Source: Sphingopyxis sp. DBS4 (GTDB lineage Bacteria > Pseudomonadota > Alphaproteobacteria > Sphingomonadales > Sphingomonadaceae). Taken from it: a DNA stretch of 64,000 nucleotides. The position numbers and the translations under genes are program-made. The first letter of the stretch is position 1, and each line of letters opens with the position of its first letter. Location: positions 1,313,001-1,377,000 of the forward strand of contig NZ_CP102384.1 of assembly GCF_024628865.1 (NCBI RefSeq). Reading direction: 5' to 3'. This document shows positions 28,463 to 47,434 of this stretch, in pieces. The notes beneath the pieces are model-generated. The model was not told the DNA's origin and did no database searches. It was given only the letters and a program-made list of their open reading frames with translations.

Positions 28463-30202
28463 TCAGGCGGCGCGTTCGAGCGGCCGCGCAAGGGACCGCC
28501 GTACGAGCCGTCCCGGCAGTGCGCCGGTATGCTCGCCGTTCAGGTATGTGATCTCACCCGACACGATCGTCGCGACATAACCGTCCGACGCCTGCTGCAT
28601 CCGCTTGCCCCCGGCGGGCAGGTCATAGGCGACGCGCGGGACGTGCAGCCGCAGCGCGTCGAGGTCGATGACGTTGATGTCGGCCTTCCAGCCTTCGGCG
28701 ATCCGTCCGCGATCCGCCATGCCGACGGTCGCGGCCGCCTTGCTCGTCAGTTCGGCGATCGCCAGCGGCAGCGGCAGGCGCTGGTCGTCGCGCGCGTCGC
28801 GCGCCCAGCGCTGGAGCAGATAGGTGGGAAAGCTGGCGTCGCAGATCAGCCCGTAATGCGCGCCGCCGTCGGCCAGCCCCATCACGGTGTTCGGATGCCC
28901 CAGCATTTCGCGCACGCTGTCGAGATTGCCGCCCGAATAATTCGCCGCGGGCAGATAAAAGACCGCGCGGCCTTCGTCGCCGAGAAGCAGGTCGTAGCTG
29001 TAATCTTCGAGCGATCGTCCCGCGGCGGCGGCCAGCGATTCGACGCGGTCCTCGCGTGCCGGTTCATATTGCGGCGTGTCGCCCCACGGGCAGGTCGCGC
29101 GAAAGGCCGCGACGAGGTTCAGCGTGACCGGATTGCTGTCTTCGGGCTGTTCGGACAGGAGCTGGCGGCGGAAATCCGGATCGCGCATCCGCGCGACCCG
29201 CTCGGCGAGCGGCAGATGCGCGATTGCCCGATAGCTCGGATGGCAGGAAAAAAGGTGCAGGCTGAGGTCGAGCCCGAAGAACATCCCGACCGGCCGCGGC
29301 GCGACTTGTCCGCGCATTTCGACGCCGTCGGCGGCGGCGCGTTCGAGCCCTTCGAGCATATGTCGCCAGCCGCCGCCGGGCTGACCCGCGACGTCGAGCA
29401 GCGTGAAGGAGAGCGGACGGCGGCCATGTTCGGCCACGGTCCGGAGTATGTCGAATTCCTGCCCGGCATCGCCGTCGGGCGCCGGGATGATCTGGAACAC
29501 GCCGGCATCGGCGTCGGTCAGCCCGTCCATCAGCGCGCAAAGCTCGTCGATGTCGGAATGGAGACTTGGCGCGAGTTCGCCCGCCTTCGTGCGGTGCATC
29601 ATGTTGCGCGAAGTGGTAACGCCGAACGCGCCGGCCTCGATCCCCTCGGCGACGAGCGCGCGCATCTTTGCCAGATCCTCCGCCGTGGGCGCCTCGCGCC
29701 GCGCCGCGCGCTCGCCCATGACATAGATGCGCAGCGCCGAATGCGGGATCTGCGCGGCGATGTCGATGTCGAGCCGCCGTTCGTCCAGCGCGTCGAGATA
29801 ATCGGGAAAGCTCTCCCAATTCCAGGGGAGGCCATCGACCATCACCACTTCGGGAATATCCTCGACCCCCTCCATCAGCTTGACGAGCATCTCGCGCTGG
29901 TGCGGGCGGCACGGTGCGAAGCCGACGCCGCAATTGCCCATCACCACCGTCGTGACACCATGGCCCGATGAGGGCATCAGCCGCTCCTCCCAGGTGACCT
30001 GGCCGTCATAATGGGTGTGGATATCGACGAAGCCGGGGGTGACGATCTTGCCCCGCGCGTCGATCTCGCGCTTTCCCGTCTCCGGCACATCGCCGACCGC
30101 GACGATCAGCCCGTCGCGGATGGCGACGTCGGCGATGCGCGGCGGGCTTCCCAGGCCGTCGTGGACGGTTCCGCCGCGGATAACGAGATCGTGATCAGCC
30201 AT
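28463..30202 (-). CDS. N-acyl-D-amino-acid deacylase-like amidohydrolase
   Basis: A 579-residue amidohydrolase: [26 protein letters not shown], the metal-binding [14 protein letters not shown], the [10 protein letters not shown] motif of the D-aminoacylase group, and [16 protein letters not shown] near the C-terminus with [19 protein letters not shown]. The ATG at 30202 has GAGGAA six bases upstream. These enzymes hydrolyse N-acyl amino acids or cyclic amides; many sphingomonad members sit in catabolic clusters with unknown substrates. Divergent from the TonB receptor at 30451 across a 248-base gap holding two candidate operators. Confidence 0.88.
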
Positions 30203-30333
30203 GTCCGTTCCTCTTCCCGATTGCCGCTGTCTGCGGGTTGTCTTTTGCAACTGGTTTAGCCGATTCCCCGTCTGTCCGAAAGCCTGAACCGGAAGGGTTG
30301 GCCGCGCGCCGGGTCTCTGGGCAATCCCTTATC

Positions 30334-30348
30334 GTCAGTTATATTGAC
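30334..30348. promoter_or_regulatory. Candidate operator A upstream of TonB receptor
   Basis: GTCAGTTATATTGAC: GTCA and TGAC arms around an AT-rich 7-base spacer. It matches a second copy 33 bases away in the same divergent gap. Confidence 0.5.
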
Positions 30349-30366
30349 GTGTCGGCACGAAAAGTC

Positions 30367-30381
30367 GTCATTTAATTTGAC
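30367..30381. promoter_or_regulatory. Candidate operator B upstream of TonB receptor
   Basis: GTCATTTAATTTGAC, the same GTCA-N7-TGAC plan as site A, centred 33 bases (about three helical turns) from it. The next bases, TTCATAGATAGCTTACTAAT, are AT-rich and could hold the promoter. Confidence 0.5.
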
Positions 30382-30450
30382 AAGATTGGATTCATAGATA
30401 GCTTACTAATCAACCGTCGACGAAGATCGGCGGCACGACATGGGAGAGGG

Positions 30451-32664: not shown

Positions 32665-34076
32665 TGCTGGAATCGGGCGGCGGACCCGTGGAGACCCACC
32701 TGCCGCCGCCGGATTCCCGGACCGGCGCCGGGGCGGGGCAGGGGGCCGCGATCGGCGCGCGCGACCGGCGCTACGCGGTCTTCATGCTGCTGGTGGTATC
32801 GACGATCGCCTTCATCGACCGATCGATCCTCAATACGGTGGGGCAGGCGATCAAGACCGATCTCCACCTCAGCGACACGCAGCTCGGGCTGCTCGGCGGT
32901 GCTGCCTTCGCGATCCTGTATGGGGTTCTCGCCATTCCGGTCGCGCGCCTTGCCGAACGCTACAACCGCGTGCGCATTATCGCGGTCTCGATGGCGGCCT
33001 GGTCGGCGATGACGGCGTTGTGCGCCGCCGCGAGCGGTTTTGGCGGGCTGATGCTGGCGCGGATCGGCGTCGGTATCGGCGAAGCCGGATCGGGGGCGCC
33101 CTCGCAGTCGCTGGTGGGCGACTATTTCCTGCCCGAAAAGCGTGCTTCGGTCTTCGGCATTCTCGGCCTCGCGATGCCGATCGGGATCATTCTCGGCGGG
33201 ATCGGCGGCGCGATCGTCGCCGAAAGCCACGGCTGGCGGGCCGCGTTCCTGCTGGTCGGGCTTCCCGGTATCGCGCTGTCGGCGATCGTTTGGCTGACCC
33301 TCAAGGAGCCGGCGCGCGGCCTCTCCGACGGCCGGATCGCCTCCGACGTCACTCCGCCGCTCGGCGCCGTGCTCCGGCGCCTTGCCGGAAGCCCCGCGTT
33401 TCGCAACCTCGTGCTGGCGGGCACGGTGGTGAGCTTCGTCGGCTATGCCGGCATGACCTTCGCGCATCCCTTCTTCGTGCGCAATTTCGATGTCGGCTAT
33501 ACCGAGGCGGCGATCGCCTTCGCGGTGATCAACAGCGTATCGCTCGGCAGCGGCAGCGTGCTCGGCGGGATCGTCGCCGACCGGCTGGGGCGCCGCGACA
33601 TCCGCTGGTATGGCTGGCTTCCCGCCATCTGCATGATCCTCGCGGCCGCGACCTATATGCTCGGCTTTTCGCAGACGAGCTGGTTCTGGACGATCCTGCT
33701 CCTGACCCCGCCGGGCTTTTTCGCCGGCGTTTTCACCGGGCCGACCTTTGCCGTCACCAGCAACCTCGTCGAGCCGCGCATGCGGGCATCGGCGACCGCG
33801 ATCCTGACGCTGACGATGAGCGTGCTTGGCATGACCCTGGGCCCGATAACCGCCGGCTGGTTCAGCGACATCTTCGCGGCGCAGGCTTTCGCCGGCGATT
33901 ATGCTGCGCGCTGCGGCGAAGCGACGGCAACCGCGGCCTGTGCGGTCGCTTCGGCTCAGGGGCTCCGGACCGCGCTGGTCACGGTCTGCTCCTTCTATGT
34001 CGTCGCGGGATGGCTGTTCTTTCGCATGGCGGCGCACCTGCCGCGCGAACTGGCTCATATGGAGGAGCGCCGATGA
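32664..34076 (+). CDS. MFS transporter, coupled to the upstream TonB receptor
   Basis: A 470-residue permease with FIDRSILNTVGQAIKTDLHLSD in helix 1, ARLAERYNRVRI motif A, and ARIGVGIGEAGSGAPSQS in helix 4, the spinster-like subgroup also seen at 19581-20927. ATG 32664 shares its first base with the receptor stop (TGATG); its own stop overlaps the next gene (ATGA at 34073). Inner-membrane uptake partner of the receptor is the simplest reading. Confidence 0.9.
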   Translation: MLESGGGPVETHLPPPDSRTGAGAGQGAAIGARDRRYAVFMLLVVSTIAFIDRSILNTVGQAIKTDLHLSDTQLGLLGGAAFAILYGVLAIPVARLAERYNRVRIIAVSMAAWSAMTALCAAASGFGGLMLARIGVGIGEAGSGAPSQSLVGDYFLPEKRASVFGILGLAMPIGIILGGIGGAIVAESHGWRAAFLLVGLPGIALSAIVWLTLKEPARGLSDGRIASDVTPPLGAVLRRLAGSPAFRNLVLAGTVVSFVGYAGMTFAHPFFVRNFDVGYTEAAIAFAVINSVSLGSGSVLGGIVADRLGRRDIRWYGWLPAICMILAAATYMLGFSQTSWFWTILLLTPPGFFAGVFTGPTFAVTSNLVEPRMRASATAILTLTMSVLGMTLGPITAGWFSDIFAAQAFAGDYAARCGEATATAACAVASAQGLRTALVTVCSFYVVAGWLFFRMAAHLPRELAHMEERR

Positions 34077-34468
34077 CCGAGGCAGAGCAAATAGCGGCGG
34101 TTGCCGAGCGCTTTTTCGGGGCGGTCGAGGCGGGCGACGCGAGCACGGTCGAGGCCTGCTACGATCCCGCGGTGGTCATCTGGCACGGCCATACGCGCCA
34201 GGCGCAGGACCGGGCGGCGAATGTCGCGACGCTGACGCAGTTCATCGCGCTCACGCGTGAGCGGCGTTACACCGACCGCAAGATCCATGTCTTCGACGGC
34301 GGTTTCGTCCAGCAGCATCTGCTGGTCGCGATCGCCAACGGCGGCGCGCGCCTTGAGCTTCCGGCGGCGCTGATCTGCGCGGTGACGGGCAACCGCATCA
34401 CCCGGCTCGAGGAATATTTCGACAATTCGGCCGTGATCGAATGGGCGAAGGCGCCCGATTTCGCGTGA
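34073..34468 (+). CDS. NTF2-like / ketosteroid-isomerase-fold protein
   Basis: A 131-residue protein starting MTEAEQIAAVAERFFGAVEAGDASTVEACYDP, the typical helix 1-2 pattern of the SnoaL/NTF2 family, and ending ITRLEEYFDNSAVIEW. GGAGGAGCGCCG precedes the ATG, which overlaps the MFS stop. It is followed after 19 bases by a VOC gene. Could be an isomerase, hydrolase or dehydratase acting on the imported substrate; residues are insufficient to choose. Confidence 0.85.
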   Translation: MTEAEQIAAVAERFFGAVEAGDASTVEACYDPAVVIWHGHTRQAQDRAANVATLTQFIALTRERRYTDRKIHVFDGGFVQQHLLVAIANGGARLELPAALICAVTGNRITRLEEYFDNSAVIEWAKAPDFA

Positions 34469-34487
34469 CGGCTTCAGGAGAGACCAA

Positions 34488-35012
34488 ATGAAGACAATGG
34501 GGATCAATCACATCGCGCTCGTGGCGCGCGACATGGCTGAAACGGTCAAATTCTATACCGAGGTGCTGCAGATGCCGCTGGTCAAGACGGTCGAGCTGCC
34601 GACCGGCGGCCAGCATTTCTTCTTCGATTGCGGCGGCGGATCGGCGGTCGCCTTCTTCTGGTGGAAGGATGCGCCGCCCGCGGCGCCGGGCGTCGCGTCG
34701 GTGAAGAAATTTCCCGGCGACGACAAGACCGCGGTCGGGTCGATGAACCATCTCGCCTTCCACATGGAAGAGGACGAACTGGAGGCCGCGATCGGCCGGC
34801 TGGTCGAGGCGGGGGTCGAGGTCATCCCGATGGTCGTGAACCACGACGACAGCGAGACGACGGTGAGCATGACGATGCACGACGGCGTGTTCATCCGCTC
34901 GGTCTATTTCACCGATCCCAACGGCATCATGATGGAGTTCGCCGCCAACACCAAGGTGTTCGGCCCCGAGGATGTTCGCCACGAACCCCAGCGCGTCGAA
35001 GCCGCCGCTTGA
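34488..35012 (+). CDS. VOC family (glyoxalase/extradiol-like) protein
   Basis: A 174-residue protein: MGINHIALVARDMAETVKFYTEVLQMPL, with His in INHIALV; SMNHLAFHM supplies a second His; FTDPNGIMMEFAANT carries the third ligand Glu. The order H-H-E fits the type I extradiol/VOC metal site. AGGAGAGACCAA precedes the ATG. Last gene of the receptor-MFS-NTF2-VOC operon, convergent with the MarR gene. Probably a small metal-dependent lyase or dioxygenase; unassigned. Confidence 0.87.
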   Translation: MKTMGINHIALVARDMAETVKFYTEVLQMPLVKTVELPTGGQHFFFDCGGGSAVAFFWWKDAPPAAPGVASVKKFPGDDKTAVGSMNHLAFHMEEDELEAAIGRLVEAGVEVIPMVVNHDDSETTVSMTMHDGVFIRSVYFTDPNGIMMEFAANTKVFGPEDVRHEPQRVEAAA

Positions 35013-35044
35013 CAGGGCACGCTGTTGGTAGCTTGTCGGCCGCT

Positions 35045-35488
35045 TCAGCGCCTGATCGTCACGACCGGCGGCTCGCCCCAATCGGCCTCGAACGCGCCGT
35101 GCAACGCGCGCACGCGGCGCTTGCCGATCCGCTGTTCGAGCAGCGCGCCCAGCTGTTCGACGATCGCATTGGCATCTTCGTGCATCTGCGCGCCGCGCTC
35201 GGCGAGCGTCACGATCTTGATCCGGCCGTCCTCGGGATCGGGTTCGAGCGCGAAGAAGCCCGCCTTGACCAGGCTCCCGATCGTCGTGTGCACCGCCTGG
35301 CGCGACAGGCGAAGCGCCCGGGCGATATCCGCCGGGCGCCGCGTGCCGACGAGGACGTGCAGAATGACCATCGATTCGGCGCGCGTGACGGGCTCCCAGC
35401 CTGCGGCCTTGAGGCTGCGTTGCAGCGCGTCGTCGAACCATTCGAAGCCCTCGAGCAGGGGAGCGATAAGGTAGTTGGTCGACTGCAT
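35045..35488 (-). CDS. MarR family transcriptional regulator
   Basis: A 147-residue winged-helix protein: TRAESMVILHVLVGTRRPADIARALRLSRQAVHTTIGSLVKAGF is the recognition region, and EPDPEDGRIKIVTLAERG the wing. It is convergent with the receptor-MFS operon. Two palindromes lie within 40 bases upstream of its ATG, between it and the next receptor gene, and are likely its autoregulatory sites. Ligand unknown; this family commonly senses phenolics. Confidence 0.9.
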   Translation of the reverse strand: MQSTNYLIAPLLEGFEWFDDALQRSLKAAGWEPVTRAESMVILHVLVGTRRPADIARALRLSRQAVHTTIGSLVKAGFFALEPDPEDGRIKIVTLAERGAQMHEDANAIVEQLGALLEQRIGKRRVRALHGAFEADWGEPPVVTIRR

Positions 35489-35671: not shown

Positions 35672-38044
35672 TCAGAAGCGATAGCGCGCTTCGAGCGAAT
35701 AGGTGCGCGGCGCGCCCGGAAGCGCCGAGTTGAACTGAAGCAGCGCCGCGAGCGGCATACCGCCGACATAATAGACTTTGTTGAAGGCGTTCTTGAGGTT
35801 GGCCGACAGCGACCAGCCGGCCGCTTCATCCTCGATGCCGATCCGGAAATTGGCGATCGAATAGCCGGGCAGATGCGCGGTCGGGTTAAGGTTGCCCGAC
35901 GCGATGTAGAAGGTGCCGGTCTGCGAATAGAGGTCGCCGCGCAGCGATGCGGTGAGGCGGCTCGACACCGGCGCCGAAATCTCGCCATAGACGGTGCCCG
36001 ACCATTCGGGAGTATCGGGCACCGTGCCGAGCAGGATCGTGCCGCCGAACGCCGGGGTCAGACCGTTGGTGAAGCGTGCGTGGGTATAGTTGAGATTGCC
36101 GCCGATGCGCAGCCAGTCGGTCAGCCGCAGATCGCCGTCGAGCTCGAACCCATAGACTTTGGTGCGCGGGACGTTGACGGCCAGAGAGGCGGGGCCGTTG
36201 ATGTCGGCAAAGGCGTTTCGCTGCCCGTTCTTGATCCACATATTGTAGAGCGCGATGTTGAACCGCGCGGGCATCGTGGCGAGAAGGCCCTGGAATTTGG
36301 CGCCGGCCTCGACATCGGTGACGGTTTCGGTGCCATAGCTGTTGCCGTTCACCGTGGCGTCGCCGACGATCGGCGGCGAACTGCCGTTGAAACCTCCATT
36401 GCGATAGCTGCGGCGCGTAACCGCATAGAGCAGGACGTCGTCGCTGATCTGGTTCTGCAATCCGAAGGTCCAGCTCAGGTTGCGGATCGTCTTGCGCTGG
36501 TCGTTGTCCGCCACGCCGCTGGCAATTTGCGCCGGCGTCGCATAGCTGTTGTCGATCGGCAGCGTCCGTCCGCGCACGGTTTCGCTGGTGTAGCGAAGGC
36601 CCGCCGTCACGCCGAACCCGCCGCCGAGCTGATAGGTGCCCTGGCCGTAAAAGGCGTAGCTGTTGTTATAGGCGACGTCCGAATTGACCGACAGCGGCGA
36701 CAGGCCGAGATCGCCGAACACGTCGAGGAAGGTCGCCTGGCGGAACACGTTCGATTTCTCGCTCGATAGATAGAAGCCGAGGGCATAGGTGAGCCTGTCG
36801 GCGGCGAGCGTGCCAAGAAGTTGCAGTTCCTCCGACAGGATCGTCGTTCGCGTATGGCCGCCGGGCCGTCCGACCTCGTCGATTTCGCCGTCGCCCGCGA
36901 CGCCGAAGGGTGAACCGTCGGTGTCGCCGCGAACATCGGTCTTCAGATGCGCATAGCCGATGATGTTCTTGAGCTTGGTCGTGTCGTTGAGATCGACCGA
37001 TGTCGAGTTGGTGACGATCAGATTTTCGGCGCGATAGAAATTGGCGTCGTTGGTCGCGATCGTGAATGGCCCGCGCGCTTTCTGGATCGCCAGGAAGTCG
37101 GCGAGACCGCCGGCGGGGATCGTCGGGTTGGTGTGCCGGCTGAGATAGCCGTCCCAGGCACCGGGGCCGAAGACGAGATCGAGGCCGGGAGAATAGAAGA
37201 GAGTCACCGCCGCCGCGGTGGGCTGCGTCGGATCGAGCGCATAGAGGACCGACTGGGTGCTGGTTCCGTCGGCCTTGTAGTAATCGACGACCAGATCATT
37301 CTCGAAGCCGCCCTCGCCGCGCCAGGTCAGGCTGCCGCGTACGCCATAGCGTTCGATCGAGCCGGGCCGCGACCCGTCGTAGAGATTGTGCTGGAATCCG
37401 GTCTGGTCGCTGTAGAAGCCCGCGACGCGCGCAAGCAGCCGGTCGTCGACGATCGGCAGGTTCAGCGCGCCTTCGAGCTGCACCGTGTCGTAATTGCCGT
37501 AGCGCGCGCTGAGATAGCCCCCGAATTCATTGGTCGGCTTGGCCGAGGTGAACAGCACCGCGCCGCCCGTCGCGTTGCGGCCGAACAAGGTGCCCTGCGG
37601 TCCCTTGAGCACCTGGACCGATTGCAAGTCATAGAAGGAGGTCGCGCCGCTGCCGCCGCCGCTGTTGCTGCTGATCTGCACTTCGTTGAAATAGGGGAGG
37701 ACGCCGGGACGGGTGCCGGTGAACTGGTCGACCGATTGCCCGCGAAGCGAGAAGTTCACTTCGTTCGAGGTCGCGCCCGCGCGCACCGACAGGCCGGGCG
37801 CGGCGAATTGCAGGTCGGCCTCCGACCGCACATTCTGTTCGGCCAGTTCCTGCATACCGACGACATCGACCGCGACCGGCGTGCGCGACAGGCTTTCGTC
37901 GCGGCGCTGCGCGGTGACGATAATGTCCTCATTTCCCGCTGTCGTTTTGCTGGCGCTGTCCGCCGTCGTCTGGGCGAGGGCCGGCGCGGCACCTCCCAGC
38001 ATCGCGGCGGCCATCGCAAATCCGCTGATCCCGTGCCTCGGCAT
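35672..38044 (-). CDS. TonB-dependent receptor of the split-dikinase regulon
   Basis: A receptor of about 790 residues: signal peptide cleaved after APALA, EDIIVTAQRRDESLSRTPVAV, plug motif VQVLKGPQGTLFGRNATGGA, and a barrel ending TYSLEARYRF. The ATG at 38044 has GGAG seven bases upstream; the frame to 38068 is less likely. A 16-base site at 38088-38103 resembles two sites around the tetR gene at 40344, so it probably imports the substrate of the dikinase/P450 cluster. Confidence 0.92.
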   Translation of the reverse strand: MPRHGISGFAMAAAMLGGAAPALAQTTADSASKTTAGNEDIIVTAQRRDESLSRTPVAVDVVGMQELAEQNVRSEADLQFAAPGLSVRAGATSNEVNFSLRGQSVDQFTGTRPGVLPYFNEVQISSNSGGGSGATSFYDLQSVQVLKGPQGTLFGRNATGGAVLFTSAKPTNEFGGYLSARYGNYDTVQLEGALNLPIVDDRLLARVAGFYSDQTGFQHNLYDGSRPGSIERYGVRGSLTWRGEGGFENDLVVDYYKADGTSTQSVLYALDPTQPTAAAVTLFYSPGLDLVFGPGAWDGYLSRHTNPTIPAGGLADFLAIQKARGPFTIATNDANFYRAENLIVTNSTSVDLNDTTKLKNIIGYAHLKTDVRGDTDGSPFGVAGDGEIDEVGRPGGHTRTTILSEELQLLGTLAADRLTYALGFYLSSEKSNVFRQATFLDVFGDLGLSPLSVNSDVAYNNSYAFYGQGTYQLGGGFGVTAGLRYTSETVRGRTLPIDNSYATPAQIASGVADNDQRKTIRNLSWTFGLQNQISDDVLLYAVTRRSYRNGGFNGSSPPIVGDATVNGNSYGTETVTDVEAGAKFQGLLATMPARFNIALYNMWIKNGQRNAFADINGPASLAVNVPRTKVYGFELDGDLRLTDWLRIGGNLNYTHARFTNGLTPAFGGTILLGTVPDTPEWSGTVYGEISAPVSSRLTASLRGDLYSQTGTFYIASGNLNPTAHLPGYSIANFRIGIEDEAAGWSLSANLKNAFNKVYYVGGMPLAALLQFNSALPGAPRTYSLEARYRF

Positions 38045-38087
38045 CGTCTCTCTCCCCAGGCTCCGCACCTTCGGGCGCGTGTTGTCT

Positions 38088-38103
38088 GTAATTAATTACT
38101 TAC
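38088..38103. promoter_or_regulatory. TetR-regulon operator, site 1
   Basis: GTAATTAATTACTTAC, 44 bases before the receptor start codon. It shares GTAA at the left and ACTTAC at the right with sites 2 and 3. GTAATTAATTAC within it is a perfect palindrome. Confidence 0.65.
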
Positions 38104-38120
38104 ATGAGCGATTGCGCCTG

Positions 38121-40217
38121 TCAACCGGCTTCCTGACGACCCTCGGCTTCGGCGCGGGTCATCCCCGCCAGGCGGATGAGATATTCGTGCAATTCGAACC
38201 AGATATTGTGATAGGAATCGATTTTCGGGGAGGCGAGATAGGGGGTTTCTCCCGCTTGTAACCGGGCGAAAGCCGCTTCAAGGCGGGTGCGGAAAAAGGG
38301 GAGCGGCCCGCGCGGCTCGATCGCCTCCAGCCACGCCATTGTGTCGCGGTGCAGCCCGGACATCCGGCCCAATATGGCGGCGTCATAATCGGGGTCGCTA
38401 TGGTTGTTGAAGACCGGGGCGCCGTCTGACGGCCGCATCTGCCAGCCGGTGACGAGCGTCTTGAAATCGTCGTTGAGTATGTGAAACGCAGCGAGGCGAT
38501 CGCGCGCGGCGTCAAGTCCCATCGCATCCCGATGCGCCGCGACCATCTGATCGCCGCGTGCCTTGCCTGAGTCGGTCACCTTGATGAAACGGGGCGAGGA
38601 GGCATCGAGAAATTCATCCAGCCCGGAGAGCTTCGCCGCCAGCGCGTCGCTGTCCAGCCGCCCGATTTCGATCGCGGCATCGCGGGGACAGAATCCCTTC
38701 AGCGCGACGAGCAGGACCAGTTCATCGTCGGACAGCGCCGACTGCACGGCGCCGATGCCGCCGTCCGCGGGGCCATCCCGCCAGCCCATCATCACCACGG
38801 CCTCGGGCGTAAGATGCGTCTCGCAGGCAAGCGCGCCGGCGAATATCTCGCCACTCTCGCCGTCGATCGACAGGATCGCACCCTCGTCGATTCGCATTCC
38901 TTCCACCGAAATGCCGCCTTCGACGAATTGCATCGCGCTCCAGCCGACCACCGCAGGCTTGCCCCAGCCGCGCGCGACCACCGCCGCATGGCTGGCGAGC
39001 CCGCCGCGGGAGGTCAGCAGCCCTGCGGCGGCGGCGATGCCTTCGATATCCTCGGGCGAGGTTTCGGGGCGCGCGAGAATTACCGCTTCGCCCTGCGCCA
39101 CAAGGTTGACGGCGCGCTCGGCGCAGGTCACCAGCTTTCCCGAAGCAACGCCCGGCGACGCACCAAGGCCGGCGCCCAAGGCGCTTTCGTCGCCGGCGAT
39201 ACGCCGCGAACGCGCTGCGGCGCCGAGCAGATGCCCGACCCTGTCCAACGCTTCGCTCCGTGTCAGAGGAAAGTCGGGGTCGAGCGCCATGTCGTGCGCG
39301 ATCCGGATCGCCGCTTCGGGCGATCGCTTGCCGGGGCGCGCCTGCAATATCCACAGCTTTCCAGATTCGATGGTGAATTCGACATCGACCAGATCGCGAT
39401 AGTGACGCTCGATCGCGTCGAGGCAGCGGTCGAGCGCTGCGGCGGCGTCGGGCAGCCGGCTCGGCAATTGGGCAATGTCGATCGTCTGGTGGGCGCCCGA
39501 TACCACGTCCTCGCCCTGCGCCTGAAACAGAATGTCGCCGAAGATCTGCGGTTCGCCGTCGGAGGGATTGCGGCTGAAGACCACGCCCGTCCCCGACATC
39601 GCGTCGCGATTGCCGAAGACCATCGCCTGGATATTGACCGCGGTCCCGGCGTCGTCGGCGATTGCCTCGATCCGCCGATAGGCTTTGGCACGCTCGCTGT
39701 TCCACGACTGGAACACGGCCTCGATCGCCGCGCGCAACTGCGCGCGCGGCGCATCGGGTGGCGCGTGACCCACTGATTTGACGAAGGATTCGTGGAGGCG
39801 GTGCAGGCAATCGCGGGCGAAATCCTCGTCGCCGCCGCTACGCGCCGCGAGCCCCGGCACGATATCGGCGTTGAGCCCGACGTTGAGCACCGTGTCCATC
39901 ATCCCCGGCATCGATGCCGCGCCGCCCGACCGGACGCTGAGGAGCAGGGGATTGACCGCATCGCCGAAGCGTCGCCCCAGCATCGTCTCGATCTGCGCGA
40001 GATGCGTCTCGATCGCCTCGTCGAACGCGGGCGACCAGCCCGAGCGCAGATAGTGCCGGCACGCGCCGGTGCCCAAGGTGAAGCCCGGCGGCACCGGCAG
40101 CCCCATGGCGCGGGTCATGTCGGAAAGACTCTTGCCCTTGCCGCCCAGCAGTTCGAGGCGTTGGGCGTCCGACAGCGCGTGGGGTGCATCGAACATGAAG
40201 GCGATCGCTTCGCTCAT
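38121..40217 (-). CDS. Pyruvate-phosphate-dikinase-like protein: ATP-grasp plus phosphohistidine domain, no PEP barrel
   Basis: A 698-residue protein. Residues 1-300 match the PPDK ATP-grasp: ELLGGKGKSLSDM, LLLSVRSGGAASMPGMMDT, MVFGNRDAMSGTGVVFSRNP, VDVEFTIESGKLWILQARPG. Residues 350-440 are the swivelling domain with GGLASHAAVVARGWGKPAVVG, His410 being the expected phosphate carrier. The C-terminal PEP/pyruvate TIM barrel of normal PPDK (about 870 residues) is absent; residues 480-698 instead look like a small winged-helix-like and helical region. An operator lies 92 bases upstream, and tetR is next on the same strand. It probably generates a phosphohistidine from ATP for transfer to a non-pyruvate acceptor, together with the protein at 43553-45262 (inference). 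Confidence 0.85.
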   Translation of the reverse strand: MSEAIAFMFDAPHALSDAQRLELLGGKGKSLSDMTRAMGLPVPPGFTLGTGACRHYLRSGWSPAFDEAIETHLAQIETMLGRRFGDAVNPLLLSVRSGGAASMPGMMDTVLNVGLNADIVPGLAARSGGDEDFARDCLHRLHESFVKSVGHAPPDAPRAQLRAAIEAVFQSWNSERAKAYRRIEAIADDAGTAVNIQAMVFGNRDAMSGTGVVFSRNPSDGEPQIFGDILFQAQGEDVVSGAHQTIDIAQLPSRLPDAAAALDRCLDAIERHYRDLVDVEFTIESGKLWILQARPGKRSPEAAIRIAHDMALDPDFPLTRSEALDRVGHLLGAAARSRRIAGDESALGAGLGASPGVASGKLVTCAERAVNLVAQGEAVILARPETSPEDIEGIAAAAGLLTSRGGLASHAAVVARGWGKPAVVGWSAMQFVEGGISVEGMRIDEGAILSIDGESGEIFAGALACETHLTPEAVVMMGWRDGPADGGIGAVQSALSDDELVLLVALKGFCPRDAAIEIGRLDSDALAAKLSGLDEFLDASSPRFIKVTDSGKARGDQMVAAHRDAMGLDAARDRLAAFHILNDDFKTLVTGWQMRPSDGAPVFNNHSDPDYDAAILGRMSGLHRDTMAWLEAIEPRGPLPFFRTRLEAAFARLQAGETPYLASPKIDSYHNIWFELHEYLIRLAGMTRAEAEGRQEAG

Positions 40218-40308
40218 CTCCGGCGATCCGTCACCGTCGAGCGCGCCGCTGGGCAGTCCGCCATGCCAGTCTCCTCTTCCCGGCCGATCTTGCTTGACCA
40301 GCTTTTAT

Positions 40309-40324
40309 GTAAGCAAACACTTAC
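40309..40324. promoter_or_regulatory. TetR-regulon operator, site 2
   Basis: GTAAGCAAACACTTAC, between the tetR stop (40344) and the dikinase-like start (40217). GTAAG and CTTAC are inverted arms around 6 bases, as in site 3. Confidence 0.75.
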
Positions 40325-40343
40325 TTCTGGAGGCCGGGATAAG

Positions 40344-41009
40344 TCAATCGGGCTTTCTGTCCGTGCCGTCGCCGCGATGTTCGAACAGCGGTAGCATCAT
40401 CTGCGCGAGTTGTTTGGCGCTTGCCGCGGTATCGAGCCGGGTGCCGCGAAAATGCGCGTTGGCCGCGACGAAAAAGCTGATCCCGATTCCGGCGATCGCC
40501 AGGAAATGCTGGTCGAGCTTGCTGCCGGGGGCATCCGACGGCATCGCGGTCGCGGTCCGTCGCGCCCAGCCTTCGATCAGCGGAACGATGCGCTTGGCAT
40601 AGAATTCCGGGCCATAGCTGCCGCTGCCGAACAGCGCGATGCCCAGCAGCGGAAACACCTCGTCCATATGGCTCAGATATTGCTCCGCGCCGCGTTCGAG
40701 GAGCTGGAGCTGGGTTTCCGCATCGGCCGCAGTCGCGACCAACCGTCCCGCATGATTATAGGTTTCGAGCCAGCTTTCGAGCGGCTCGATCACCGCGGCG
40801 TCGAACAATTCCTCCTTCGATGCGAAGTGGCGATAGATCAGCGCTTCGTTGATCTTCGCTTCGACCGCGATGTCCTTGGTCCGGGCGCCCGCATAACCGC
40901 AGCGGATGAACACTTCGGTCGCCGCCGCCAGGATCGATTCGCGGCGTTCCGCAGATGAAATGCGGCTCGTCGCTTTCTTCGGCCGGGCTTGCGCTTTGGT
41001 CACCACCAT
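40344..41009 (-). CDS. TetR family regulator of the dikinase/P450 cluster
   Basis: A 221-residue repressor. A basic leader (VVTKAQARPKKATSRISSAE) is followed by the helix-turn-helix RRESILAAATEVFIRCGYAGARTKDIAVEAKINEALIYRHF and a C-terminal ligand domain. The ATG at 41009 is close behind GAGGG; a GTG at 41003 is better spaced. The frame to 41126 is unsupported. It is divergent from the amidohydrolase operon and upstream of the dikinase-like gene, with matching 16-base sites in both gaps and before the TonB receptor, so it probably represses all three units. Confidence 0.9.
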   Translation of the reverse strand: MVVTKAQARPKKATSRISSAERRESILAAATEVFIRCGYAGARTKDIAVEAKINEALIYRHFASKEELFDAAVIEPLESWLETYNHAGRLVATAADAETQLQLLERGAEQYLSHMDEVFPLLGIALFGSGSYGPEFYAKRIVPLIEGWARRTATAMPSDAPGSKLDQHFLAIAGIGISFFVAANAHFRGTRLDTAASAKQLAQMMLPLFEHRGDGTDRKPD

Positions 41010-41154
41010 CCCTCGATCTTCGGTCCGTGCAGTACGGCAAATAGCGTGATGGCGCCCCCGAATGCAAATCCGACCGGTTTCGGCGCCCGATCCCGCCAAC
41101 CTTTGCGGAGTCAGGCCTGGCGCCAAGAGGATTGACGCTCCCCGAATCCAGATG

Positions 41155-41170
41155 TAAGCATTTACTTACT
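41155..41170. promoter_or_regulatory. TetR-regulon operator, site 3
   Basis: GTAAGCATTTACTTAC in the 187-base gap between divergent tetR and the amidohydrolase gene, 26 bases before the ATG at 41197. It differs from site 2 at four spacer positions only. Confidence 0.78.
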
Positions 41171-41196
41171 TATAAAGCGAGAGAGGAATTTCATCG

Positions 41197-42414
41197 ATGT
41201 CCCGTGCCCCGCGCCTGATTTCGCCGGACGATCATCTGCAAGCGCCCGCGCATCTGTGGCAGACGCGTCTGCCGGCGCGGTTTCGGGATCAGGGCCCTTA
41301 TGTAAAGCGGATGACCGGCACCGCTTACGATGCCGGCGGCGGCAATTTCCGCTTTCGCGAGACACCCGACGGCGCGCTCGGCGATGTCTGGCATTATGAC
41401 GGAAAGCAGGTTCCGATCGTCAAGATTGCGGCGGCGGCTGGCTTTTACCCGCGTTCGTCGGTGAAGTTCGGGCCGAACACCTTCGACGAGATTCGCGAAG
41501 GCTGTTACAACGGCACGGCGCGCCTCGCCGACATGGATCAGGCCGGTATCCTCGCCTCGGCCAATTATCCCAACATGTTCGTCATGTTCGCGGGCGAGCA
41601 ATTCAGCTTCGCGTCGGACAAGCTGCTCGCGCTCGAATGCATCAAGGCCTATAACGACTTCGTGATCGAGGAATGGTGCGCGGGGTCGGGCGGCCGGCTG
41701 ATCCCGATGGGGATCGTTCCGCTCTGGGACGCCGACCTCGCGGTCGCCGAAGCTCATCGGCTCGCCAAGCTCGGTTTCAAGACCATCTCCTTTCCCGAGG
41801 CACCGCATCGGAGCGGTCTGCCGTCGATCTCGTCGCGCTATTGGGACGGGTTGTTCGAGGCGGTCGCCGATGCCGACATGGTGCTCTCGGTCCACATCGG
41901 CACCTCGCCGATGACGCTCGCCGCGCCCGATGCGCCGGCAGCGGTCGCGCATGTCGGCGCCTCCTATTATGTCATGCACTGTCTGATGGAGTTCCTCTGG
42001 TCGGGCGTCTTTGTGCGCTTTCCGCATCTCCGCGTCTCGTTCGCGGAATCGCAGCTCGGCCTCGTGCCCTACACGCTCGACCGCTGCGACTTCATCTGGG
42101 AGAATATCGTCATCGACGGCGTCGCCACCGTCGACCAGCGCGCGCTCCCCGAGAAGCCGTCGCATTACTTCCGGCAGAATTGCTACGTCTCCTATTTCCG
42201 CGACCCGGTCGGGCTGGAAATGACGCAGCACATCGGGATCGACAACATCATGTTCGAAACAGACTACCCGCATCTCGACTGCGACTGGCCCGATTGCCTG
42301 ACCGAGGCTGAGCAGATGGTCGCTCATCTGCCCCACGATGCGCAGGACAAGATTCTGTTCGGCAACGCGCACAGGCTGTTCCGGCTGGATATCAAGGAAC
42401 CGGCGCTCGCCTGA
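41197..42414 (+). CDS. Amidohydrolase family protein (COG2159, ACMSD-like)
   Basis: A 405-residue TIM-barrel metal enzyme. The N-terminal LISPDDHLQAP has DDH in place of the usual HxH, common in this subgroup. VLSVHIGTSP supplies a barrel His, and the C-terminal GIDNIMFETDYPHLDCDWP carries the conserved Asp. Relatives include ACMS decarboxylase and many uncharacterised hydrolases of catabolic clusters; hydrolysis or non-oxidative decarboxylation are both possible. AGAGAGGAATTTC precedes the ATG. First gene of a five-gene plus-strand operon running to the SDR at 47293, under TetR site 3. Confidence 0.87.
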   Translation: MSRAPRLISPDDHLQAPAHLWQTRLPARFRDQGPYVKRMTGTAYDAGGGNFRFRETPDGALGDVWHYDGKQVPIVKIAAAAGFYPRSSVKFGPNTFDEIREGCYNGTARLADMDQAGILASANYPNMFVMFAGEQFSFASDKLLALECIKAYNDFVIEEWCAGSGGRLIPMGIVPLWDADLAVAEAHRLAKLGFKTISFPEAPHRSGLPSISSRYWDGLFEAVADADMVLSVHIGTSPMTLAAPDAPAAVAHVGASYYVMHCLMEFLWSGVFVRFPHLRVSFAESQLGLVPYTLDRCDFIWENIVIDGVATVDQRALPEKPSHYFRQNCYVSYFRDPVGLEMTQHIGIDNIMFETDYPHLDCDWPDCLTEAEQMVAHLPHDAQDKILFGNAHRLFRLDIKEPALA

Positions 42415-42446
42415 GCCCCGCGAACGGATCAAGACAGGAGAGGGCG

Positions 42447-43496
42447 ATGAAGTTCACCGCGACCGAGCGGATGGCGCCGCACCGCATGCCGGATGCGGAC
42501 GAATATTTTCACAGGCCACCTGATCCGCTGCCCGAACGGTGGCAGGAAAATACGATGCTCGCGGCGTGGAACATCGACGAAGGGCACGGCTTTCTGGTTC
42601 ATACCAAGCGCTGGCCAGCGAAGGGCGACCATGAGGCGCATATCATCGTTTTCGTCGATGGCGTCGCCTCGTCGGCGATCCTGCACCGGCCGACCGGCGA
42701 CACCCTCCGCATCAACGACGAAATCCCCGAACTGCTGTTCGAGCCGGAGGTGCCGTGGAGCCGCTGGCGGCTGTGCGCCGAAATCCAGGGTGCGGGCGGC
42801 ATCGGTCCGCACGGCTTCCTCGCGCATGCGCCCCGCGGCGATACGATCGGCGCGATCGATATCGTCATGGAAAGCGATCTTCCTATTGCCGATTTCAACG
42901 CCGCGCTGGCCGAATGGGCCGAGACGCTGAGCGCGGCGGGGTCGCATTCGCACAATTCGGCGCAGGCGCATTATGAGCAGGGCGGTCGTTGGCACGGCAC
43001 GCTGCGCGTCGGCGGCCGGACAGTGAAGACCAGTGGGTTGTTCGTGCGCGATCATAGCTGGGGAGAACGCGTCGAGCGCGGGTTCGACTCCGGGGTGTTC
43101 TGGACGGCGTCGTCGCTCGATAACGGCAATATCTTCTGCAACGCGATCGGCTTTCCGCAGCCCGACGGTTCGGCGATCGGCACCGGCATATTGGTGAACC
43201 GCGACGGCGCGTTCCTGACCAACAAGGTCGGGGGGCGCTTCACCCCCGAGCCGGGCCTGCTCAGTTACGACCGATCGGAGTTGACGTTCGGGTTCGATAC
43301 GCCGGTCGTGCTGACCGGCGAAACCCACGTCCACGTACCCAAATATCTGCCCGGGTCGGGCTTCCGCCGCTATGACAATAATGCGATCTCGCGGGTGCGG
43401 ATCGGCGATCGTGTCGGCATGGGGTGCCTGGAATGGGCGGCGGTGCTCGAAAAGCATCAGGCCGACGATCTCGATCGCCTGCTCGAAGACGCATAA
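42447..43496 (+). CDS. CrtC/AttH-like lipocalin-fold protein, function unknown
   Basis: A 349-residue protein. Its clearest motif is VRDHSWGERVER near residue 200, with SSLDNGNIFCNAIGFPQ after it, as in the DUF7064/hydroxyneurosporene-synthase-like families, where such proteins hydrate or bind hydrophobic molecules. Other segments, such as GHGFLVHTKRWPAKGDHEAH, fit beta-barrel strands. CAGGAGAGGGCG precedes the ATG. It sits between the amidohydrolase and the PEP-utilising gene. No catalytic assignment is possible; the domain names are from memory. Confidence 0.65.
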   Translation: MKFTATERMAPHRMPDADEYFHRPPDPLPERWQENTMLAAWNIDEGHGFLVHTKRWPAKGDHEAHIIVFVDGVASSAILHRPTGDTLRINDEIPELLFEPEVPWSRWRLCAEIQGAGGIGPHGFLAHAPRGDTIGAIDIVMESDLPIADFNAALAEWAETLSAAGSHSHNSAQAHYEQGGRWHGTLRVGGRTVKTSGLFVRDHSWGERVERGFDSGVFWTASSLDNGNIFCNAIGFPQPDGSAIGTGILVNRDGAFLTNKVGGRFTPEPGLLSYDRSELTFGFDTPVVLTGETHVHVPKYLPGSGFRRYDNNAISRVRIGDRVGMGCLEWAAVLEKHQADDLDRLLEDA

Positions 43497-43552
43497 GAAA
43501 CCGACCCGCCGACCGGCAAAATGCCGGCGACTGGATCGGGGGAGAGGATTGC

Positions 43553-45262
43553 ATGACCGTCGACACCTGGCTGCTGCACGATACGCCGTCGAAGCGCTTC
43601 CCGATTTATACGCGTTCCAACGCGGCCGAAGTGATGGGCGCACCGGTATCGCCGCTCGGCTGGTCCTATGTCTGGCGCGAAGCCTTCGGTCCGGGCACGG
43701 TGCGCGGCTATGTCGATTTCGGCGGTTTCGACGCCGACGAGTTCGACGGGCCCGAGGATGTCTATGGCATCTTCGGCGGCTATTTCTATCTCAACATCTC
43801 GGTGATGTTCGTCGAGATGGAGCGAATGATGCCGGGTGGCGCGGCGCGCATGGCGGCGATGTTCGATAGCGGCCCGGGAATGCCGCCGCATATCGCCGAG
43901 GATTGGCACGCGAATGCCGCCTGCGGCGCGCGGGTCGCGGCGAATGTCGGGTGCTTCATGGCGGGCGAGGTCCACCCCGACCTGGACGTTTTGCACGAAG
44001 CGGCGATCGCGTTGCGCGCGGAGCGCCCCGATCTCGCGTCGATTTCACCGGCCGAGATCATCGCGCGGCTGCGGTCGATTACGCCCCTCCTCGACCGCGC
44101 CGGATGCATCCATGTGCAGATCGGGCAGGCGGGCATGATCGCGATGGGCCAGCTTGCCGAGCTTCTGGCGGCCGTCGGCCGGGCCGGGGACGTGGCGCGG
44201 CTGGGCACCGGCATCGGCGATGTCGAGTCCGCCGATATCGCTCGCGGGCTTTGGACGATCAGCCGCCTGGTTCGCGGCTCACCCGCGCTCAAGGCCGCTT
44301 TCGCGCCGGGCATCGACGGCGTGCTGGGTCGCATAACCGACCTCCGATTCCACGACCTCTTCCGCCATTTCCTCTATGAGCATGGCGCGCGCGCGACGAA
44401 CGAATGGGACCTGATCTACGATACCTATGAAACCGCGCCGCAAACCGCGCTGGCGCTGATCGACGCGATGGCGAAGCAGGGGGACGAAGCCGATCCCGAG
44501 GCGGCGCTGAATCGCAACGCGGCGCTGCGGCGCGAATGCCTCGCCGATATTCGTGCGCAATTTCCCGGTCAGGCCGATGAGATCGACGCCGCCGCGACGG
44601 CGCTCGCGACATGGTTCGTCGCGCGCGAGCGGTCGAAGAATATGTGCGTCCGCCTGGTTCACGAGGCCCGCATGGGCTGCGAAGCGCTGGCGGCGCAGGG
44701 CATTGCGGCAGGCGCGCTCGACGACCGGCGGCAATTCTATATGCTTCTGTCGAATGAACTCGACGCTTGGGCGAGCGACCCCGCCGCCTTCACCGACACG
44801 CTGCGCCGGCGGCTGGCCGATTATCACGCCCTGGATCAGATCGAGCCGCCCTTCTTCGTCAACGGCGAATGCCCGCCGATCGCCGAATGGCCGCAGCGAA
44901 GCGTGCGTGACATCGCGGCCGCCGCCGATGGCGATCGGCTGACGGGTGTCGCCTGTTCGCCGGGCCAGGTCACGGGGCGGGCGCGGATCATCCTCGACCC
45001 TTCCGACCCCGGCGCGCTCGAACCCGACGAGATTCTCGTCACCACGAACACCAACCCCAGTTGGACGCCGCTGTTCCTCGTCGCCGGCGCGGTGGTGACC
45101 GAGTTCGGGTTGTTCAATAGCCACGCCAGCATCGTCTCGCGCGAGCTGGGAATTCCATGCGTCGCGTCGGTCGACGGCGCAACCGACCGGATCAAGGACG
45201 GCATGCTGGTGTGCGTCGACGGAGCGGCCGGAACCGTCGATATTCTCGAGGGGGTCGCCTGA
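43553..45262 (+). CDS. PEP-utilising mobile-domain protein without ATP-grasp
   Basis: A 569-residue protein. The C-terminal domain (about 465-569) is the swivelling phosphohistidine domain: GVACSPGQVTGRARI, ILVTTNTNPSWTPLF, then LFNSHASIVSRELGIPCV with His524 as predicted carrier. The first 460 residues lack an ATP-grasp and look like the acceptor-binding middle domain of rifampin phosphotransferase-type enzymes (mostly helical, e.g. ANVGCFMAGEVHPDL). ATG 43553 has GGAGAGGATTGC upstream; the longer frame is unsupported. The stop overlaps the P450 start (TGATG). With the dikinase-like protein at 38121 it would make up a split ATP-dependent phosphotransferase. Confidence 0.82.
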   Translation: MTVDTWLLHDTPSKRFPIYTRSNAAEVMGAPVSPLGWSYVWREAFGPGTVRGYVDFGGFDADEFDGPEDVYGIFGGYFYLNISVMFVEMERMMPGGAARMAAMFDSGPGMPPHIAEDWHANAACGARVAANVGCFMAGEVHPDLDVLHEAAIALRAERPDLASISPAEIIARLRSITPLLDRAGCIHVQIGQAGMIAMGQLAELLAAVGRAGDVARLGTGIGDVESADIARGLWTISRLVRGSPALKAAFAPGIDGVLGRITDLRFHDLFRHFLYEHGARATNEWDLIYDTYETAPQTALALIDAMAKQGDEADPEAALNRNAALRRECLADIRAQFPGQADEIDAAATALATWFVARERSKNMCVRLVHEARMGCEALAAQGIAAGALDDRRQFYMLLSNELDAWASDPAAFTDTLRRRLADYHALDQIEPPFFVNGECPPIAEWPQRSVRDIAAAADGDRLTGVACSPGQVTGRARIILDPSDPGALEPDEILVTTNTNPSWTPLFLVAGAVVTEFGLFNSHASIVSRELGIPCVASVDGATDRIKDGMLVCVDGAAGTVDILEGVA

Positions 45263-46503
45263 TGCCGACCCCCGGCGATGCAATCCTGTCCCCCCATACC
45301 TACGCCGATCCCGATGCGATGGACACATTGTTCACCGCGCTGCGCCGCGACGATCCCGTGCACCGCGTCGAACATCCCGATTATCGCCCCTTCTGGGCGG
45401 TCACCAAATTCGCCGATATCCAGGAGGTCGAACGGCAGCCCGATCTCTTTCTGAATGCGCCGCGCACTTTCCTGCGCACCCTCGCCTATGAGGAGCGCGC
45501 CCGCGCGGCGACCGGCGGCAATCCCGCGCTTCTGCGTAGCCTCGTCTTCATGGATGCGCCCGATCATGCGCAATATCGCAAGCTCACGCAGGCGTGGTTT
45601 ATGCCGGGGCGGATCAAGGCGCTCGAAGCCGATATCCGCCAGCTCGCGGCCGAGGTGATCGATGATATGGCCGACCGCGGTGGAGCCTGCGATTTCGCCG
45701 CCGACGTCGTGCCCTATTTTCCGGTGCGGGTCATCATGCGCATCCTCGGCGTGCCGCGATGCGACGAGCCGTTGATCCTGCAACTGACGCAGGAAATCTT
45801 CGGGTCGGACGATCCCGACGTGCAGGCGGCGCGGACGATGACCGCGAGCCTGGCCGATACGGTGAAGGTCTTCTCCGACTATTTCCGCGACCTGACCGCC
45901 GAGCGCCGCCGCAATCCTTCGGACGATCTCGCCACATTGTTCGCGCATGCAGAGATCGACGGCCGGCCGATGGCGGACCATGAAAGCGTCTCCTATTATA
46001 TTCTCGTGGCGACGGCCGGGCACGATACGACCAGTTCCACCACAGCGGGCGGCCTGCTGGCCTTGATCGAGAACCCCGATGCGCAGGCACAGCTAAGGGC
46101 CGATCTTTCGCTTCTGCCCGGCGCCGTCGACGAAATGGTGCGCTGGGTGTCTCCCGTCCGCCATTTCTTTCGCACCGCGACCCGCGATCATGAACTGCGC
46201 GGCAAGGCCGTTCGCGCCGGTGACAGCCTGATGATGTGTTACCCCAGCGCCAATCGCGACGAGGAGATATTCGACGATCCTTTCGCGTTCCGGATCGATC
46301 GCCCGGCGAACCGGCACATCGCCTTCGGCTACGGCCCGCATCTGTGCCTGGGCATGCATATGGCACGGATGGAAATCCGCATCTTCTACGAAGAATTGCT
46401 GCGCCGCGTTGCCTCCGTCGAGCTGGCGGGCGACCCGGCCTGGCTCGCATCGACCAACGTCGGCGGGCTCAAGCGCCTACCCATCCGTTTTACGCTCGCT
46501 TGA
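45262..46503 (+). CDS. Cytochrome P450
   Basis: A 413-residue soluble bacterial P450: I-helix AGHDTTSST (residues 252-260), ExxR at 291-294 (EMVR), heme loop FGYGPHLCLGMHMAR with Cys362 as axial ligand. SLVFMDAPDHAQYRKLTQAWF is typical of the CYP groups near steroid and terpenoid hydroxylases. The ATG shares a base with the previous stop (TGATG). No ferredoxin or reductase gene is adjacent. It probably hydroxylates the cluster substrate; the resulting alcohol is a plausible acceptor for the phosphotransferase (inference). Confidence 0.93.
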   Translation: MPTPGDAILSPHTYADPDAMDTLFTALRRDDPVHRVEHPDYRPFWAVTKFADIQEVERQPDLFLNAPRTFLRTLAYEERARAATGGNPALLRSLVFMDAPDHAQYRKLTQAWFMPGRIKALEADIRQLAAEVIDDMADRGGACDFAADVVPYFPVRVIMRILGVPRCDEPLILQLTQEIFGSDDPDVQAARTMTASLADTVKVFSDYFRDLTAERRRNPSDDLATLFAHAEIDGRPMADHESVSYYILVATAGHDTTSSTTAGGLLALIENPDAQAQLRADLSLLPGAVDEMVRWVSPVRHFFRTATRDHELRGKAVRAGDSLMMCYPSANRDEEIFDDPFAFRIDRPANRHIAFGYGPHLCLGMHMARMEIRIFYEELLRRVASVELAGDPAWLASTNVGGLKRLPIRFTLA

Positions 46504-46555
46504 CAGACGGGGCTCGTCCCGCCGATCAGGCAAAGGCGGCCACCGGGGAGGAACT

Positions 46556-47293
46556 ATGATCGCCGATACCGATTTTTCCGGAAAGACCATTCTCGTCGTC
46601 GGCGGATCGAGCGGCATCGGAAACGGCATTGCGCACGGCTTTCGTCAACGTGGCGGGGCGGTGCATGTGTGGGGAACCCGCGCTGCGGCGTCCGACTATG
46701 ATCCTGCCGACGGCTCCGATCTGGCCGGGCTCGGCTATGATTGCGTCGATGTCGGCGATCCGGCGGCGATCGACGCCGCCGCGACGCCCTTCGACCGGCT
46801 CGACGTGCTTGTGCTGTGCCAGGGCGTCGTCGTCTACAAGCGCGGCGAGTTCGAGCGCGAGGGGTGGGACCGGGTCATGGCGGTCAACCTTGATAGTCTG
46901 ATGCATTGCGCGCGCAAATTTCGCGGCCAGCTATCCGAGACCCGTGGTTCGATCGTCGTGGTCAGTTCGATTTCGGGTTTGCGGGGAAATATCGGCAACC
47001 CCGCTTATGCCGCGTCCAAGGCGGGCGCGATCAGCTTGACCAAGACGCTCGGCCAAGCGTTCGCCGCGGACGGCATTCGCGTCAACGGCCTGGCGCCGGG
47101 GCTCGTCGATACGAAATTGACCAAGGCCACGACGCAGCATCCCGATCGCCTGGCAGGCCGCCTGGCGGCGATCCCGCAGCGGCGAATGGGGACGCCCGAG
47201 GATATGGCCGGCGCCGCGATCTTCCTCGCGTCCCCGCTCGCATCCTACGTAACCGGCCATACGCTCGTGGTGGACGGCGGTCTCTCGCTCTAA
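46556..47293 (+). CDS. SDR family oxidoreductase of the dikinase/P450 cluster
   Basis: A 245-residue short-chain dehydrogenase: VVGGSSGIGNG for the nucleotide, LCQG replacing NNAG near residue 88, catalytic Ser138, Tyr151 and Lys155 (YAASK), and VTGHTLVVDGG at the end. GGGGAGGAACT precedes the ATG at 46556. Last gene of the operon; it likely oxidises an alcohol formed by the P450 or a later intermediate. The N-terminal extension of the open frame overlaps the P450 and is rejected. Confidence 0.9.
   Translation: MIADTDFSGKTILVVGGSSGIGNGIAHGFRQRGGAVHVWGTRAAASDYDPADGSDLAGLGYDCVDVGDPAAIDAAATPFDRLDVLVLCQGVVVYKRGEFEREGWDRVMAVNLDSLMHCARKFRGQLSETRGSIVVVSSISGLRGNIGNPAYAASKAGAISLTKTLGQAFAADGIRVNGLAPGLVDTKLTKATTQHPDRLAGRLAAIPQRRMGTPEDMAGAAIFLASPLASYVTGHTLVVDGGLSL

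Positions 47294-47358: not shown

Positions 47359-47434
<76 letters not shown>

Follow-up and report, generated by a model that had tools for sequence, protein, structure and literature searches.

The 64,000-nucleotide window analysed here (Sphingopyxis sp. DBS4, contig NZ_CP102384.1, positions 1,313,001 to 1,377,000) carries a set of genes, including one for a TetR-family regulator, in which two proteins related to phosphohistidine-transferring dikinases are encoded. The first is a pyruvate phosphate dikinase (PPDK) that ends before the pyruvate barrel, and the second resembles a rifampin phosphotransferase (RPH) from which the ATP-grasp domain has been removed. We call them the donor and the acceptor, and their mobile phosphohistidine domain the swivel. 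The other members of the set are a TonB-dependent receptor, a COG2159-fold protein, a DUF7065/DUF7064 protein, a cytochrome P450 and a short-chain dehydrogenase (SDR) (Table 1).

Table 1. Features of the gene set, in window positions unless a locus is named; L014 is a related locus described in the text.
Feature	Position	Strand	Basis and remarks
TonB-dependent receptor, likely substrate uptake	35672..38068	-	Pfam TonB_dep_Rec_b-barrel and Plug; own operator copy immediately upstream
Operator-like palindrome 1, GTAATTAATTACTTAC, 1 mismatch	38088..38103	.	Upstream of TonB gene; L014 counterpart at 4403
Donor: barrel-less PPDK (ATP-grasp, swivel His410) with fused winged-helix/helical tail, residues ~482-698	38121..40217	-	
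Coding part of winged-helix/helical tail	38124..38810	-	Alignment; separate gene in L053, L062, L094, L219-L227
Operator-like palindrome 2, GTAAGCAAACACTTAC	40309..40324	.	Upstream of donor gene; L014 counterpart at 2173
TetR-family regulator	about 40344..41012	-	Pfam TetR_N; listed frame to 41126, start codon provisional
Operator-like palindrome 3, GTAAGCATTTACTTAC	41154..41169	.	Between tetR and acceptor operon; L014 counterpart at 7663
COG2159-fold protein, candidate diiron oxygenase	41197..42414	+	Closest PDB chains and ligand positions
DUF7065/DUF7064 protein	42447..43496	+	Pfam
Acceptor: RPH-type acceptor domain with swivel His524, without ATP-grasp	43553..45262	+	
Cytochrome P450	45262..46503	+	Chosen ATG overlaps stop of acceptor gene
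SDR	46556..47293	+	Pfam
tRNA-Lys (CTT)	47359..47434	-	Directly after SDR gene
Proteins with swivel, PEP/pyruvate barrel and tail	L258 3774-6533; L259 3278-5665; L260 4149-6461; L261 3809-6331		Four genomes that also carry RPH-type genes

The donor retains the ATP- and phosphate-binding residues of a PPDK, a PPDK-type phosphate loop (SMPGMMDT) and the swivel histidine, His410, which is conserved together with its motif in 45/45 aligned donors. Pfam, profile and sequence comparison found no C-terminal phosphoenolpyruvate (PEP)/pyruvate barrel in it, and for this reason an assignment as a true PPDK or PEP synthase was dropped. In the fused tail, W592, Q593, S668-H670, W673 and E675-E678 (motif SYH..WFELHE) are invariant in the 45 aligned donors, and a search of the PDB with the tail profile gave a best match of only E 0.033. 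The fused form appears to be common, since the best 120 of 7998 matches are all 673-756 residues long (the 7998 include ordinary PPDKs); a Sphingopyxis protein is 80% identical. The acceptor consists of the RPH acceptor domain and a swivel with His524, and Pfam found no match to PPDK_N, the ATP-grasp, in it. In both comparisons, families without a match were not treated as excluded. A preliminary description of this locus had assigned the two domain compositions correctly, as profile and sequence comparison confirms. Its further statement that the missing parts are complementary holds for the absent barrel and the absent ATP-grasp, but the two proteins are not strictly complementary.

Acceptor-site residues of RPH are kept in the second protein. 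In RPH-Lm, Arg666-Glu667 is critical and Lys670 also belongs to the acceptor site (PMC4844700); R358, E359 and K362 of the acceptor align with these three positions and are conserved in 22/22 sequences. The acceptor and RPH-Lm are alike in acceptor-domain fold, swivel and Arg-Glu site, but a single RPH-Lm chain also includes the ATP-grasp, which here is on a separate protein. Split enzymes of this general kind are known. HpeHI, CreHI and PpsAB are dikinases without a swivel on the ATP side, and for HpeHI the acceptor swivel arm has been proposed to dock directly on the ATP-grasp (PMC12167813); hpe has homologous and syntenous counterparts in the Acv genes of SYK-6 (PMC9618137). Because HpeHI, CreHI and AcvAB phosphorylate phenolic substrates aerobically (PMC12167813, PMC9618137), the assertion in the preliminary description that no such aerobic pathway is known was wrong. 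Like these systems, the present one would place the acceptor domain and a C-terminal swivel histidine in one protein and the ATP-grasp in another. Their ATP subunit is, in contrast, an ATP-grasp only and PEP-synthase-like, while the donor is PPDK-type and has its own swivel His410 and a winged-helix tail. It is in the donor that the novelty lies, and its phosphohistidine arm suggests a relay from histidine to histidine. Our literature search brought up nothing apparent on the combination of a barrel-less PPDK and an RPH-type acceptor, nor on such a relay.

An assignment of the acceptor as an HpeH/AcvA orthologue was considered and dropped. BLAST similarity to 17 HpeH-like proteins of the window's family, which were named by size, gene order and neighbours with no HpeH sequence in the comparison, is confined to the swivel (41-46% over 105-113 residues); the profile match covers 273 columns. 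The 17 loci concerned (L098-L114) each carry an HpeI-like ATP-grasp gene adjoining the HpeH/AcvA-like gene.

The precedent of HpeHI, CreHI and PpsAB, which function without an ATP-side swivel (PMC12167813), allows the acceptor arm to dock directly on the donor ATP-grasp, with His410 spare or regulatory. We consider this quite unlikely. His410 and its motif are conserved throughout the aligned donors, proteins exist in which the tail accompanies a swivel and a barrel without any ATP-grasp, and autophosphorylation at His422 is reported for VadK (Rv1127c), another barrel-less PPDK (PMC13400623). VadK is like the donor in ending before the barrel and in having the ATP-grasp and the catalytic swivel histidine. 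It has been proposed to be a regulator, and its operon partner Rv1126c improves its solubility (PMC13400623). The donor differs from it in being fused to the tail and in sharing a catabolic gene set with an RPH-type acceptor; for VadK, the accessible part of that report proposes no small-molecule acceptor. A VadK-like histidine kinase whose winged helix regulates gene expression or a partner enzyme, and which is no metabolic phosphate source, is nevertheless a further reading of the donor, and the least probable one. The net charge of the winged-helix part is negative in 5/6 members, which is weak evidence against a DNA-binding tail because the helix-turn-helix region of the window's TetR also has a net charge of -1; we tried the DNA-binding assignment on this ground and kept it as a rival. 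The set already has a TetR gene, and in nine loci of the window's family the donor gene has catabolic genes around it and the gene of a small swivel protein next to it.

Evidence that donor and acceptor genes belong together comes from the operator-like palindrome, which precedes all three transcription units of the set. The window contains 8 strand-matches to GTAAGYAWWYACTTAC at up to three mismatches, where 0.36 would be expected, and 0/100 shuffles reached 8. When the whole 4.9-Mb genome was scanned with a limit of two mismatches, three places matched, and all belong to this set: one precedes the TonB gene, one the donor gene and one the operon that starts at 41197. A reversed control pattern gave 3 plus 2 matches in the same genome at that threshold. 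A diverged cluster in an alphaproteobacterial metagenome-assembled genome (MAG), L014, has donor, TetR, COG2159, DUF7065, acceptor and P450 genes 54-73% identical to those of the window; its TonB gene is less closely related, and the SDR has no match there. GTAAG-N6-CTTAC is found there, with one mismatch, in each of the three corresponding promoters, and there are two more two-mismatch sites at 4335 and 5911 (0.94 expected).

A second line of evidence is the company of barrel-less PPDKs in other genomes. A second, separate swivel gene lies within 9 kb in 25 of 33 loci (the window counted), from Alphaproteobacteria, Actinomycetota and Chloroflexota; group names of genomes with G handles were inferred. 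The 33 are the loci with a barrel-less PPDK inside the fetched stretch, L241 (a 4.8-kb contig) being scored as a miss. Left out of this count were tail loci without a PPDK (L220 and L251, where a swivel gene is present, and L243, at a contig end, where none is), the fragment G548, standalone tail loci (L133-L135, L137, L138, L140 and L142-L158 except L153), barrel-keeping PPDKs beside a tail gene (G274, G277, G286 C45) and swivel-barrel-tail proteins (G252, G259, G267, G281). The standalone tail genes of L134 and L135, among those left out, adjoin an RPH-type gene. No ATP-grasp other than that of the barrel-less PPDK was found in the fetched loci, and the same profile finds the HpeI-like partner in 17/17 control loci. 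A search with the PPDK barrel of the window's own genome found none in L219-L231 and L237-L255.

Across the 249 genomes of the window's family set, full-length RPH-type proteins occur in two (G000 and G038), and both are among the 11 genomes, with 12 places, that have the tail domain (p 0.0018). In G038 the RPH-type stop codon overlaps the start of the donor gene, P450, SDR, CoA ligase and TonB genes lie around, and a tail gene is ~5 kb away. The remaining 10 tail places (L094, in the window's own genome, and L219-L227) have an adjoining PF00391-type swivel protein of ~240-270 residues in 10/10, its histidine invariant in the nine sequences aligned. A barrel-less PPDK is present in 9/10 (not L220), and CoA-ligase and biotin-carboxylase genes in most. 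This second set (L094 at C1:4198001-4217999) also carries genes for a 515-residue protein, a biotin carboxyl carrier, a carboxyltransferase and a thiolase, and its gene content suggests a pathway of phosphorylation and carboxylation that differs from Hpe/Acv. The 515-residue protein (L094 g7) had no profile match when tried as the missing acceptor domain.

In Chloroflexota a standalone swivel protein lies within 7 kb in 9/13 fetched barrel-less PPDK loci by raw neighbourhood count, or 10/14 with L031, where it is RPH-type. By swivel score seven of the nine are HpeH-like (three cut by the fetched edge), one is RPH-type (L247), its gene almost touching the donor gene, and one is of the small kind (L250). 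Among Actinomycetota, L053, G286 C1 and G272 have a donor and a second swivel gene no more than 9 kb apart; tail-like genes adjoin the donors in L053 and G272 and are ~5 kb off in L062/G286. On one contig of Actinomadura G272 (C21:37600-110042, L228-L230) four RPH-type matches, one without a swivel, surround one donor and a tail gene. With a second swivel gene in so many donor loci of several phyla, the pairing is real and wider than had been anticipated in the preliminary description, where a search for the pair together with COG2159 and CrtC-like genes in sphingomonads and actinobacteria was suggested. The wider set of partner genes is not general, COG2159 being found in 2/53 and DUF7065 in 1/53 standalone RPH-type loci.

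We favour, with a probability of a little over one half (about 0.55), a reading in which a single ATP-driven phosphotransferase for small molecules is split between the protein at 38121 as donor half and the protein at 43553 as acceptor half, their genes sharing one operator sequence. The operators in two diverged clusters, the multi-phylum pairing and the RPH acceptor-site residues all lend support to what had first been proposed from this single locus. Several observations weigh against it. A donor was present within the examined flanks of only 4/53 standalone RPH-type loci (some cut by contig ends), and 9/40 genomes with a standalone RPH-type gene have no PF01326 ATP-grasp, though several are possibly incomplete MAGs. 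In view of these nine genomes, this donor does not seem to be needed by every acceptor; the RPH-type protein may act with different partners or may exchange phosphate as HpeH can (PMC12167813). The fetched stretches of L252-L255, L239, L242 and L244 contain no second swivel gene, nor does the short contig L241. The tail is not exclusive to such donors either: it adjoins barrel-keeping PPDKs in G274, G277 and G286 C45, where RPH-type genes lie 11-16 kb away, and in G252, G259, G267 and G281 it forms one protein with a swivel and a barrel but no ATP-grasp, the RPH-type genes of these genomes being on other contigs. An association of tail domain and RPH-type gene in the class of G252 (6/7 vs 28/141, p 5.9e-4, with full length cut at about 1e-100) is confounded and is not used as proof, because the sampled tail genes mostly adjoin dapA and the genomes are related. 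The same holds for the tail domain in 34/38 genomes behind standalone RPH-type loci, which are related genomes with tail genes often by dapA. Standalone tail genes, many beside dapA, were also seen in L137-L158, whose genomes carry RPH-type genes. A housekeeping role of the tail domain is possible.

Part of this evidence would fit two independent enzymes: a donor that is a complete kinase and holds the phosphate acceptor with its tail, and an RPH-type protein that exchanges phosphate between phosphorylated small molecules. The invariant tail residues, the common fused form, the donors with no second swivel gene nearby and the genomes with an RPH-type gene and no PF01326 ATP-grasp would all be accommodated, and HpeH alone transferred phosphate between phenols (PMC12167813). 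We regard this as unlikely in view of the operators common to both genes in two diverged clusters, the overlapping or nearly touching genes of G038 and L247 and the frequency with which a second swivel gene is found in donor loci.

The partner genes give some indication of the chemistry. For the protein at 41197 the closest PDB chains are DitZ (8uyr), PtmU3 (6omp) and 6m1w, which we take to be AibH2. Its ligand set of Asp-x-His, His, Glu and Asp-x-x-His is complete (D11, H13, H233, E284, D356, H359, D361) and matches the diiron pattern reported for AibH2 (PMC7782822). Because this is the pattern of AibH2/PtmU3-type enzymes, we consider the protein a candidate oxygenase and not a hydrolase, which replaces its earlier designation as an amidohydrolase. 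The DUF7065/DUF7064 protein had no PDB match at E 1, and a literature search on DitZ and on DUF7065/AttH found nothing about DitZ or DUF7065, though its DitZ part brought up the AibH2 paper. The closest PDB entries of the P450, ranked by E-value and not by a tree, are 3tkt (1.4e-116), presumably CYP108D1, and P450terp 1cpt (1.1e-113). A terpenoid-like substrate is a guess from the relatives of the P450 and of the protein at 41197. When the neighbours of 53 standalone and 27 single-chain RPH loci were compared, P450 (16 vs 1, p 0.0078), CoA ligase (11 vs 0, p 0.013), luciferase-like oxidoreductase (12 vs 0, p 0.0065) and SDR genes (19 vs 4, p 0.068) were more frequent beside the standalone form, which is only suggestive because the taxa differ. 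Counts for COG2159 (2 vs 0), DUF7065 (1 vs 0) and TonB (1 vs 0) were low, and the company of these three with standalone RPH-type genes is not general. At lower coordinates, window positions 28463-35488 hold D-aminoacylase-like, TonB receptor and MFS transporter genes (by eye) and VOC and MarR genes (Pfam); the palindrome is absent there, and these genes probably form a separate catabolic set.

If donor and acceptor are halves of one phosphotransferase, a hydrophobic, perhaps terpenoid, compound would enter through the TonB receptor, and the P450, the candidate diiron oxygenase and the SDR would install a hydroxyl or process the product. ATP would load His410 of the donor, from which the phosphate would pass to His524 of the acceptor; less likely, the acceptor arm would dock straight on the donor ATP-grasp. 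His524 would then swing to the acceptor pocket and phosphorylate the substrate hydroxyl; the compound would thereby be kept inside the cell, or its oxygen turned into a leaving group. Passage of phosphate between histidine proteins recalls the PEP:sugar phosphotransferase system, an analogy only in which the swivel of Enzyme I alone is common. That system is driven by PEP and coupled to transport, unlike the present one, and the folds here are others.

A broader reading, which we hold tentatively and as clearly less probable than the pairing itself, is a multi-phylum, PPDK-derived relay in which a tail-bearing charger serves interchangeable swivel-arm acceptors, comparable to the many acceptors that Enzyme I supplies in the sugar phosphotransferase system. 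Two forms of the charger would exist, one using ATP, as in this window, and one using PEP (G252, G259, G267, G281); that the swivel-barrel-tail proteins are a PEP-driven counterpart of the donor is speculation. The acceptors would be RPH-type, HpeH-type or the small swivel protein working with the biotin carboxylase set, and the clearest example would be Actinomadura G272, where 72 kb of sequence hold four RPH-type genes and one charger.

Split dikinases are of interest for the breakdown of lignin and phenols and are related to an enzyme that inactivates an antibiotic. If the proposed pairing is true, it would give a partner and a job to the barrel-less PPDKs, a common family of which VadK is the one studied member that we found (PMC13400623, accessible part), and split dikinases for small molecules would gain a second kind, derived from PPDK and working by a relay from histidine to histidine.

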